Shown: in pieces, positions 23,508 to 57,244 of the stretch
Layout: each line of letters starts with the position of its first letter
Position numbering within the stretch: position 1 is the stretch's first letter
Assembly (NCBI GenBank): GCA_016125075.1
Contig: WGMO01000008.1
Location: 1-64,000 of the forward strand
Direction: 5' to 3'
DNA: 64,000 nucleotides
Source of the DNA: Terrimonas sp.
GTDB lineage: Bacteria > Bacteroidota > Bacteroidia > Chitinophagales > Chitinophagaceae
The notes under the pieces: generated by a model
Database searches by the model: none
What the model was told of the DNA's origin: nothing
What the model saw: the letters and a program-made list of their open reading frames with translations, nothing else
Position numbers and translations under genes: made by a program

Positions 23508-23873
23508 TCAAAACTGTCCTGTACTCAGCATCACCAGGGTACAGGCTTCGAGGGTTTGGATGTTATTTTTTTCGGCCAGTTCCTTCAGGGTATCATTTTC
23601 TGCTCCCGGGTTGAAAATAATCCGACGGGGATGCAATCCTATGATATAGTCATAGTAGGCCACCTGGTGGGATGGGTTGAGATAAAGCGTCACGGTATCC
23701 ACATCGGTCCAGTCTTTTTTTTCCGTATGGATGACGATGTCATCCACAACGGCTTTTCTTTTCCCGATGGCCAGTACGGTATGCCCGTTGGCCTTTAATC
23801 TTTTCATGGCGAGAAAGCTGTAGCGGGAAGTATTATCAGAGGCGCCAAGTACCAGGGTTTTCTTTGATGACAT
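23508..23873 (-). CDS. CoA-binding domain protein (YccU-like)
   Basis: KTLVLGASDNTSRYSFLAMKRLKANGHTVLAIG Rossmann start; IGLHPRRIIFNPGAENDTL. Confidence 0.82.
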   Translation of the reverse strand: MSSKKTLVLGASDNTSRYSFLAMKRLKANGHTVLAIGKRKAVVDDIVIHTEKKDWTDVDTVTLYLNPSHQVAYYDYIIGLHPRRIIFNPGAENDTLKELAEKNNIQTLEACTLVMLSTGQF

Positions 23874-23906: not shown

Positions 23907-25010
23907 TTACAAAAGACGGTAAGCACTTCTGGGTAATTTCCCAATGATGGCCTGGCAAGCCTGCCCGATGGTTTCATATTTAAACCGGAATCCTTCTTTC
24001 CGGGCTTTTGCAGGGATGACCCACCTACTTTTTAACAATAGTTCGGTTTCCGTGCCGATTAGAAATGCGCCTGCTTCCAATAATAATTCCGGAGCTGGTA
24101 ATCCAATCTTGTTATGGGTTATGTTTCTTAGCGTATACATGAGATCGGTGTTTGAAACTGCATATGGGGCAACACAGTTATAAACCCCTTCCGCAGTTTT
24201 ATTTTCAAAAAGCCATTCTATCATTCTGGCAATATCTTCAGCATGAACCCAACTGAACATTTGCTTCCCACTTCCCTGTTTTCCCCCGAGGAAGTATTTG
24301 CATAACCGGAGATAGGGGGTAAGTACCCCTCCTTCATCCAGGGTAATTGCTGTTCTTAAAATTACCTTCCGGGTTGCAGCAGTTTGCTCTTTCTCAAAGG
24401 TTTTTTCCCAAAGTTTACAAACCTGTACTGAAAAGTCATAGTCAAGTTCTTTATACACGGAAGAATTTTTTCCATGTTGGACCCTCGTGAGGATCCTATT
24501 TTTTATTTCTCTGGCAGTATCAAGAAAATTGAATGGCATATTATCCTTTTTCTGGTCACTGATCATACCGGTGAATTCATCATTGGGGCCTTCATATTCA
24601 TTGCGATATATTGTGGTGGAACCTCCATTGATCCATAGCTGAGGTGGATGATTACATTTTCTGATGGCTTCGCCAATAGTCTTTGTGGCATTGACACGGC
24701 TTGATAGAATTTCGTTTTTCTGTTTTTTGTGATACCGGCAATTGACTGATTTCCCAGCGAGGTTAAGTAAGATGTCAGATCGGTCAATAGCTTTCAACCA
24801 ATTATTGTCAACATGGCATCCATCCCATTTCAGGTATTGAACCTTATACCCATCTTTACGGGTTAATAGTTTTGAATGATATGCATTATTATGTGGGTCT
24901 CCTTGCTGACGACTTAGAATGATGATTTCATTTTCATTTCCCAGGTATTTTACAAGTGCCTGTCCAATGAATCCAGTACCTCCGGTGATAATGATCTTTT
25001 TATTTTTCAT
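23907..25010 (-). CDS. TIGR01777-family SDR epimerase-like protein with internal insertion
   Basis: IIITGGTGFIGQALVKYL; NLAGKSVNCRYHKKQKNEILSSRVNATKTIGEAI; FSWVHAEDIARMIEWLFENKTAEGVYNCVAP. Confidence 0.85.
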   Translation of the reverse strand: MKNKKIIITGGTGFIGQALVKYLGNENEIIILSRQQGDPHNNAYHSKLLTRKDGYKVQYLKWDGCHVDNNWLKAIDRSDILLNLAGKSVNCRYHKKQKNEILSSRVNATKTIGEAIRKCNHPPQLWINGGSTTIYRNEYEGPNDEFTGMISDQKKDNMPFNFLDTAREIKNRILTRVQHGKNSSVYKELDYDFSVQVCKLWEKTFEKEQTAATRKVILRTAITLDEGGVLTPYLRLCKYFLGGKQGSGKQMFSWVHAEDIARMIEWLFENKTAEGVYNCVAPYAVSNTDLMYTLRNITHNKIGLPAPELLLEAGAFLIGTETELLLKSRWVIPAKARKEGFRFKYETIGQACQAIIGKLPRSAYRLL

Positions 25011-25015
25011 GGTGC

Positions 25016-25831
25016 TTATCTAAATAGGTACAATATAAAAAAGCAAATGCCGGCAAGATTGATCCCGCTGATCCACCTGTGCTTACTGAGCAGCCCGATA
25101 TAATCCATCCTTCTGAGGTATTCCTGGAAGATGAATATGGACAGGAATACCAGGTAAAGGCTGAGCAATATAGCTGTCAGTTGTCCTGCCAGGAGTATGA
25201 CGGGCACAAAAAGAAGGGTACAGGTGAGGGCCAGCATATTGACCTGTCCCAGGTATTCAATCGCTTTTTTGGCAGGAAGGCAAAAGGCCAGCAGGCAATT
25301 GGCGCCGGCCAAAACGAAGTGGGCCACCTGCAGTTCCCGGATGGTCAAATGATAAAATGGCAGGGATTGTAAAACCTGGTCAACGGGGTAGAGCATTACA
25401 GTATTGAAACAAAAAAAGAACAGCAGGAACAATATCCTGTATCCCGGATGGAAAGCGGGAGAACAATCGATATCACCGGGTCCGCATTTTTTGGCCACGA
25501 TCACTTTCCGGTTGAAAGAAATAAATTTATAAAAGTGGGTCAGGAACCATTTTACAGGGTGGAGATTCCCGATCGTTTTGATCATAGGGATCTTTGTGTC
25601 GAGTATCTCCAGCAAGGCATCAATACCATACAGGACCTGACCGGATTGCAGGTTGATGAGGGGGATTTCGTTGGACCCTTTTTCGAAATTGATCCTGGCC
25701 AGTAGATCTTCACGCGCTGCAGAAAAAGCCATACGTTCTTCCCTTTTCAGCAGACCGGTCTTGACAAAGAGCCGGGTATACCCGACACAAAGCGGGCAAT
25801 GATCATCGTATAAGAGGATACTGTTTTCCAT
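25016..25831 (-). CDS. DCC-family (DUF393) thiol-disulfide oxidoreductase-like membrane protein
   Basis: LLYDDHCPLCVGYTRLF DxxCPxC motif followed by several hydrophobic segments. Confidence 0.8.
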   Translation of the reverse strand: MENSILLYDDHCPLCVGYTRLFVKTGLLKREERMAFSAAREDLLARINFEKGSNEIPLINLQSGQVLYGIDALLEILDTKIPMIKTIGNLHPVKWFLTHFYKFISFNRKVIVAKKCGPGDIDCSPAFHPGYRILFLLFFFCFNTVMLYPVDQVLQSLPFYHLTIRELQVAHFVLAGANCLLAFCLPAKKAIEYLGQVNMLALTCTLLFVPVILLAGQLTAILLSLYLVFLSIFIFQEYLRRMDYIGLLSKHRWISGINLAGICFFILYLFR

Positions 25832-25834
25832 GAC

Positions 25835-26227
25835 TCAGTTTTTGAGGTGAATCAGTTCTTTTTTTGCCAGCAGTTGATATTCTTTATAACAAATGAAATG
25901 ATAAAATATCGCCAGCAGGGGTGGTAAGAAAAGCATCAGGTAGAGGTAATACCAGAAAATGGGGATGTCCAGGTAAGCCAATCCAAAACAAAGCAGCCCG
26001 GTGGCCAGGAGGATGAGGAGGATAACTTCATAGGTCTTCCTGGAGGGTATTCGGATATATTTCTTTTTTAAGAACAGGTGGGCAATCATGCTGATCAACT
26101 GCCAGCCCCCCACGATAAAATAAGCAGTGAAGATGTATTGGCCATTTCTTTTTACCAGCCCCATGATGGTACAAATGAGGATCAGCAGGGTACCGATCAA
26201 CATATCGGCCAGTTTCAGTTTTTTCAT
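25835..26227 (-). CDS. Multi-pass membrane hypothetical protein
   Basis: 130 aa with about four hydrophobic segments; 3 nt from the DCC gene. Confidence 0.7.
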   Translation of the reverse strand: MKKLKLADMLIGTLLILICTIMGLVKRNGQYIFTAYFIVGGWQLISMIAHLFLKKKYIRIPSRKTYEVILLILLATGLLCFGLAYLDIPIFWYYLYLMLFLPPLLAIFYHFICYKEYQLLAKKELIHLKN

Positions 26228-26242
26228 TATTTATGTTTTTAA

Positions 26243-26264
26243 ATTTTCAGAATAAATTGAAAAA
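26243..26264. promoter_or_regulatory. Candidate operator A for the GbsR/MarR regulator
   Basis: ATTTTCA-GAATAAAT-TGAAAAA; matches operator B (26849..26870); 16-37 nt upstream of the 26227 start codon. Confidence 0.6.
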
Positions 26265-26272
26265 TTTTGTGT

Positions 26273-26295
26273 AAAGAAAAGCCGGGGTATCCGGC
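26273..26295 (-). terminator. Probable intrinsic terminator after the GbsR/MarR gene
   Basis: Minus strand GCCGG-ATACC-CCGGC followed by TTTTCTTT. Confidence 0.5.
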
Positions 26296-26315
26296 GTTTC
26301 GGTTAGTGATTTCCA

Positions 26316-26822
26316 TTATTTAAAGAGCTTCATCATGCTGCCCACAAACCAGTTTTCTTCGGCCCTGATCATCACATCAAGGGTCTTATCGGCCTGGTTA
26401 CCGAGTTTTTTGATACTACTGATAGTATCCACAAAGGTCCTGACATTTTTATCCCTTTTATCGCCTTCCACCGCTTCTAATTTATTCAAAAGGTCCAGCA
26501 TGGGCTCCAGTTCCCTTTTCTTCCTTTCTTTGACGATTTGCCTGACTACTTTCCAGATATCTTTTTCAGCCGTAAAAAACTCTTTTCTTTCGCCCGGGAT
26601 GATCACCCTTTCCACCAGTCCCCAGTTGATCAGTTCCCGGATATTCATATTGGTGTTACCCCGACTGATATTCAGTTCTTCCATCATGTCATCCTGCGTC
26701 AGCGGATCGGGACTGACCAGTAGCAGGGCATGGATCTGGGCCATGGTCCGGTTGATACCCCAATGGGTACCAAAGGCGCCCCAGCTGCTGATGAATTGTT
26801 GTTTGGCTTCTGTGAGTTTCAT
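26316..26822 (-). CDS. GbsR/MarR-family transcriptional regulator
   Basis: FGTHWGINRTMAQIHALLLVSPDPLTQDDMMEELNISRGNTNMNIRELINWGLVERV winged-helix region. Confidence 0.88.
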   Translation of the reverse strand: MKLTEAKQQFISSWGAFGTHWGINRTMAQIHALLLVSPDPLTQDDMMEELNISRGNTNMNIRELINWGLVERVIIPGERKEFFTAEKDIWKVVRQIVKERKKRELEPMLDLLNKLEAVEGDKRDKNVRTFVDTISSIKKLGNQADKTLDVMIRAEENWFVGSMMKLFK

Positions 26823-26848
26823 ACCCCAAAAATAAATATTGATATTGA

Positions 26849-26870
26849 ATTTTCAAAATATATTGAAAAT
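26849..26870. promoter_or_regulatory. Candidate operator B for the GbsR/MarR regulator (autoregulatory)
   Basis: ATTTTCA-AAATATAT-TGAAAAT, perfect 7-bp inverted repeat, 27-48 nt upstream of the regulator start. Confidence 0.65.
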
Positions 26871-26875
26871 AATAT

Positions 26876-56275: not shown

Positions 56276-57244
56276 ATGACAGCAGCAACTATTCTCATCA
56301 CCGGCGGTACCGGCCTGGTCGGCACCGCTTTGACAAAGGCCTTATTGGAAAAAGGATATCATGTTATTATCCTGACCCGTAACCCATCCCGATACCCGAA
56401 CCCGACTGCAAATCCCCATCTCTGTTATGCAGGATGGGATGTGAAAAAGCAGCACATCGATAAGGATGCCCTTGCCAAGGCTGATCACATCATCCATCTC
56501 GCCGGGGCAGGGGTAGCGGATAAACGCTGGTCGAAAAAAAGGAAGCAGGAGATTGTAGACAGCCGCGTGAAAAGCAGTGAACTTATCGTTCAGGTATTGA
56601 AGGAATACCCCAACAAAGTGCAAACTGTGGTCAGTGCATCCGCAATAGGGTGGTATGGCCCGGATCCTTCCATCCCTCTTTCCAACCATCGTGAAGGGTT
56701 TATTGAATCTGATCCTCCGTCACAAGATTTCCTCGGCACGACTTGTAAGCAGTGGGAAATATCCATTGAACCGGTCACCGATTTGGGAAAACGGTTAGTG
56801 ATACTCAGGACAGGAATCGTATTAAGTAATAACGGTGGAGCCTATGTGGAATTTATCAAACCCCTGCATTGGGGCATCGCTGCCATACTGGGAAATGGGA
56901 AACAGGTGATTAGCTGGATACATATTGATGACCTCGTTAGGATGTTTATCCATGCCCTTGAACAAAAAGATCTTTCGGGCCCCTATAATGCCGTAGCGCC
57001 CGCACCCATCTCCAATAAAGCGCTGGTAATAGAAATCGGCAAACAGCGCAGGGGACAATTTTATATTCCCATTTTTGTTCCCTCTTTTTTGCTAAAAATA
57101 ATACTGGGTGAAATGAGTATTGAAGTGTTGAAAAGTACAACGGTCAGTGCAGCCAGGATACAGGCCACCTCCTTTACCTTTCTCTTTCCAACTGCTGTAG
57201 CGGCGGTCAGGCACTTGCTGGGCCAAAGAAATCAAAAGGGCTGA
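56276..57244 (+). CDS. TIGR01777-family SDR epimerase-like protein (second copy in window)
   Basis: ILITGGTGLVGTALTKALLEKGYHVIILTRNP; HLAGAGVADKRWSKKRKQEIVDSRVKSSELIV; ISWIHIDDLVRMFIHALEQKDLSGPYNAVAP. Confidence 0.9.
   Translation: MTAATILITGGTGLVGTALTKALLEKGYHVIILTRNPSRYPNPTANPHLCYAGWDVKKQHIDKDALAKADHIIHLAGAGVADKRWSKKRKQEIVDSRVKSSELIVQVLKEYPNKVQTVVSASAIGWYGPDPSIPLSNHREGFIESDPPSQDFLGTTCKQWEISIEPVTDLGKRLVILRTGIVLSNNGGAYVEFIKPLHWGIAAILGNGKQVISWIHIDDLVRMFIHALEQKDLSGPYNAVAPAPISNKALVIEIGKQRRGQFYIPIFVPSFLLKIILGEMSIEVLKSTTVSAARIQATSFTFLFPTAVAAVRHLLGQRNQKG

Follow-up and report, generated by a model that had tools for sequence, protein, structure and literature searches.

The window analysed here, 64,000 nucleotides of a Terrimonas contig (WGMO01000008.1, positions 1 to 64,000), contains a gene for a GbsR-family MarR-type regulator (gbsR) with one copy of a 22-bp palindrome upstream of it and a second one before the gene cluster that follows. 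The best explanation, to which we give a probability of about 0.86, is that gbsR codes for an autoregulated repressor that would control its own cluster and, in the Chitinophagaceae, also the gene of the type II NADH dehydrogenase (NDH-2). A search of the literature for this cluster, or for a link between GbsR and NDH-2, found nothing, and the regulon and its NDH-2 connection are new with respect to the literature searched; the operator type and the kind of system are already known.

The first palindrome, ATTTTCA-AAATATAT-TGAAAAT (operator 1, 26849-26870), has perfect 7+7 arms and lies 27-48 nt from the gbsR ATG (26822, minus strand). The second, ATTTTCA-GAATAAAT-TGAAAAA (operator 2, 26243-26264), is mismatched at the outermost pair and lies 16-37 nt from the ATG of the first gene of the cluster (26227, minus strand). 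Between both genes, 3' of gbsR, an intrinsic-terminator-like hairpin was found, GCCGGATACCCCGGC-TTTTCTTT (26281..26295, minus strand), with a similar hairpin in 33 of the 43 orthologous spacers that carry a second operator. The palindromes, their positions and their distances to the ATGs agree exactly with a preliminary description of this DNA, which had also reported a terminator-like hairpin between the two genes.

The intergenic G+C content is only 15-31%, and with such AT-rich cores and flanks the palindromes might have arisen by chance and have no regulatory role. Dinucleotide-preserving shuffles almost never yield the motif, however. Exact TTTTCA-N8-TGAAAA occurs twice in the window versus 0.05 times per whole-window shuffle, and shuffling the two intergenic stretches alone produced it in 3/20000 and 2/20000 cases, so that the suspicion of a motif abundant in random AT-rich DNA found no support. 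In the whole genome (3.92 Mb) there are nine exact sites versus one for a control pattern (forward counts). Three of the nine have an A/T-rich core and are intergenic and close to a start codon, namely the two in the window and a third one at G000:C19:254637, upstream of the NDH-2 gene, which came out of the genome search that the preliminary description had proposed. Five others were judged to be chance occurrences as they fall inside coding ORFs, and so was one that is located between genes, yet not near a start.

Of 150 sampled genomes of the family, 80 contain a gbsR orthologue, usually in single copy. TTTCA-N8-TGAAA was found at most 100 nt upstream of gbsR in 47 of 50 family orthologues, where shuffles predict 0.06, and a marginally shorter variant, TTCA-N8-TGAA, precedes gbsR in all 80 orthologues of a set of named Chitinophagaceae and related genomes. 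The operator also extends to gbsR orthologues in other families of the phylum, and with this conservation an origin by chance is already refuted and keeps practically no probability. Operator 2 was recovered in 43 of the 80 named orthologues, always with the same TTTCTGAAA half-site. Phylogenetic footprinting thus supports the earlier proposal that the regulator controls itself and the next cluster, and the doubt that the site might not be conserved in orthologous loci did not hold.

The gbsR product (26316..26822, minus strand) is a cysteine-free protein of 168 aa. Residues 22-79 match MarR_2 (PF12802) with 35 bits, above the 27-bit cut-off, corresponding to an N-terminal winged helix-turn-helix. 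The best relative in the PDB, and the closest solved structure by sequence, is Mj223 of Methanocaldococcus jannaschii (1ku9; E 9.4e-17, residues 3-143), which served as GbsR template. There is also similarity to CudC (NF047500; 55.9 bits, E 4.4e-15, residues 2-114). Similarity to GbsR/CudC and to Mj223 is one feature of the GbsR family, and the A/T-rich inverted-repeat operators at or near target promoters are another; both are seen here, besides the MarR-type winged helix. The possibility of a CudC equivalog was discarded, with a score under the 218-bit equivalog cut-off and no osmoprotectant genes (glycine betaine synthesis, Opu transport) beside gbsR, where the neighbours are instead DCC, TIGR01777 and CoA_binding_2 proteins.

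The downstream cluster, on the minus strand as well, starts with a predicted membrane protein of 130 aa without Pfam or NCBIfam family (25835..26227). It continues with a DCC1-like thiol-disulfide oxidoreductase of 271 aa (25016..25831; PF04134, 33.7 bits), a TIGR01777 SDR oxidoreductase of 367 aa (23907..25010; 240.9 bits, above cut-off) and, as the last likely member, a CoA-binding-domain protein of 121 aa (23508..23873; PF13380, 78.2 bits), which adjoins gbsR in many relatives. Nearly all sampled genomes of the family have a TIGR01777 match, mostly more than one, whether or not they contain gbsR, and a comparison of its presence or absence with that of the regulator was therefore uninformative. 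The window itself contains a second gene of this family (56291-57205, plus strand) with a score above that of the cluster copy. In other families the cluster (L324 1194-5396, L326 1216-3765 and L320 2599-6023) also includes a protein of 158-180 aa that looks SRPBCC-like on visual inspection; L320 and L324 have a DUF2071-like protein in addition.

The consensus promoter of Bacteroidota is TTTG-N19-TAnnTTTG. A TTTG on the minus strand within operator 1 (26857-26854) fits the -33 element, and 19 nt past it there is a putative -7 box, TATTTTTG (26827..26834, minus strand). Among the 80 gbsR orthologues the operator start is found at 45 to 95 nt from the ATG, and in 70 of them a TAnnTTT/A box begins 16-18 nt past the operator end. 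This constant spacing to the box together with a variable distance to the ATG suggests that the operator is tied to the promoter rather than to the start codon and that its occupation should block the -33 element; fixed spacing of this kind is one more argument against chance palindromes. In the window (26820-26834) and in most orthologues only about 4 nt separate the end of the putative -7 box from the ATG, which predicts a gbsR mRNA with no leader or almost none.

At operator 2 no canonical -7 box was found between the operator and the ATG in the window, and a TAnnTTTG box is absent in 42 of the 43 spacers, which makes activation or a roadblock possible at this site. The regulator might recruit the polymerase to an unusual promoter, or stop transcription that reads through from gbsR. 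The distance from operator 2 to the ATG, nearly fixed at 33-35 nt, and the invariant half-site are in favour of such a different action, and in Bacillus subtilis GbsR represses as a roadblock, OpcR by occlusion of the -35 region (PMC7396694). Against it, the terminator T-tract is placed about 20 nt upstream of a TTTCTG, a spacing with which a degenerate -33/-7 pair could be hidden inside the operator; furthermore, an unlinked DCC-TIGR01777 pair in one relative (L315) still has operators, two in number. Altogether we consider activation or a roadblock at operator 2 possible but rather unlikely, and ordinary repression of the cluster is the reading followed below.

The third copy of the palindrome is identical to operator 1 in 22 of 22 positions and closely precedes a gene (L008 203-1474) whose product is a type II NADH dehydrogenase, with both Pyr_redox_2 (PF07992) and NDH2_C (PF22366) above cut-off. 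Among solved NDH-2 structures it matched 9mqy with an E value of 1.7e-69, and Ndi1 and the Staphylococcus aureus NDH-2 were among the matches. A conserved TAAATTTG box is found about 9 nt downstream of the operator, and judging from this arrangement the operator is probably in a blocking position at ndh as well. The presence of the operator in NDH-2 promoters follows that of the regulator, with 36 of 47 genomes containing gbsR against 0 of 18 lacking it (Fisher 7e-9), or 36 of 42 against 0 of 9 when only NDH-2 of at least 58% identity are considered (p 1.6e-6), values that overstate the independence of phylogenetically related genomes and have to be read as strong evidence rather than as exact probabilities. 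In most of the 11 of 47 gbsR-containing genomes without the site, GbsR or NDH-2 is divergent. Among 20 NDH-2 loci from outside the family a single, weak match was found, and the core regulon looks like gbsR plus its cluster, with NDH-2 as an addition at the family level. The regulon proposed in the preliminary description, gbsR and the next cluster, is thereby retained, and has to be enlarged with this distant third target.

The dependence on the regulator could also be seen in genome-wide scans with TTTCADWWNNTHYTGAAA, which gave 182 strand matches in 26 genomes with gbsR versus 18 for the reversed control pattern, and 45 versus 38 in 21 genomes without gbsR (each symmetric site counts as two matches, and the genomes, being related, are not independent samples). 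Several of the unlinked matches are at recognisable genes. A DCC gene away from gbsR has an operator in one genome (L082), and in another (L317) the operator precedes a two-gene unit whose homologues adjoin gbsR in Terrimonas. In eight genomes a two-gene unit coding for small membrane proteins of about 118 and 135 aa (TM118/TM135) keeps its own operator; these proteins have no clear Pfam or NCBIfam family, and a search of the genome that the window belongs to detected no TM118 at the sensitivity applied. The other matches in relatives are mostly within ORFs or at unrelated genes. One genome without a gbsR match (G021) gave seven pattern matches versus none for the control, and neither of the two inspected lies at a gene that could be recognised as part of the regulon.

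The palindromes could instead belong to a regulator other than the 26316-26822 protein, unlinked to it, for which gbsR is just one target more. Against this explanation stand the site before gbsR itself in each of the 80 orthologues, the lack of the NDH-2 site in genomes without gbsR and the loss in them of the enrichment over the control pattern. In addition, a GbsR-type protein, CydE, has been footprinted on the same palindrome. An unlinked regulator is improbable in the light of these data, and control by the gbsR product itself is the reading we retain.

CydE of Alishewanella sp. WH16-1 is a GbsR-type repressor of cytochrome bd that protects TATTTCAGAAATTTCTGAAAGTTCA in vitro, a site of TTTCA-N8-TGAAA form (PMC6096048). 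The footprinted TTTCAGAAATTTCTGAAA fits the consensus of the operators described here, so that the operator type is, at the level of its sequence, identical to the footprinted CydE site, and a GTTCA follows the CydE site as it does in several of our gbsR promoters. With this palindrome in common, a gammaproteobacterial and a Bacteroidota GbsR protein seem to have retained one operator specificity. CydE controls its own gene and has a respiratory enzyme as target, as the regulator described here would. CydE differs in being co-transcribed with cydAB and in responding to sulfate, whereas here the putative targets are the DCC/TIGR01777 cluster and NDH-2; no cydAB was found among the proteins scanned in the neighbourhood of gbsR.

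In B. subtilis, GbsR and OpcR regulate how glycine betaine is made and taken up, with choline or osmoprotectants as the compounds sensed (PMC7396694, PMC6207618). Like the putative repressor described here they are MarR-type repressors with a winged helix-turn-helix and A/T-rich inverted-repeat operators, and OpcR overlaps the -35 region in the way that operator 1 overlaps the putative -33 element. B. subtilis GbsR is different in that its operator has a 4-bp spacer and works as a roadblock. The aromatic inducer cage has been reported only in the osmostress subgroup of the family (PMC6207618).

From the placement of the operators and from the examples of CydE, GbsR and OpcR we infer repression, and the following model is proposed. 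The 168-aa protein would bind as a dimer to an A/T-rich palindrome built on TTTCA-N8-TGAAA. At operator 1 it would cover the -33 element of the gbsR promoter, blocking RNA polymerase and repressing its own synthesis, while from operator 2, past the gbsR terminator, it would control the cluster of membrane protein, DCC, TIGR01777 and CoA-binding protein. The third copy, just upstream of the putative NDH-2 -7 box, would add a target elsewhere in the genome. A presumed inducer would loosen the repressor and lead to joint derepression of redox and membrane genes.

A 2018 survey of GbsR proteins had to leave 73 homologues without an assigned function, most of them belonging to Bacteroidetes and Euryarchaeota (PMC6207618). 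For at least the orthologues sampled here of the Bacteroidota branch that this survey had left as "unknown", the analysis provides a candidate operator, a promoter geometry and a list of putative targets. We tentatively suggest that this branch might be a further functional class, in which the repressor would sense a respiratory or membrane-redox signal (e.g. NADH, a quinone, an acyl or a sulfur compound) and couple the expression of NDH-2 to a conserved cluster of membrane and thiol-redox genes that occurs across the phylum. NDH-2 would link the Bacteroidota GbsR branch to respiration, as cytochrome bd does for CydE.
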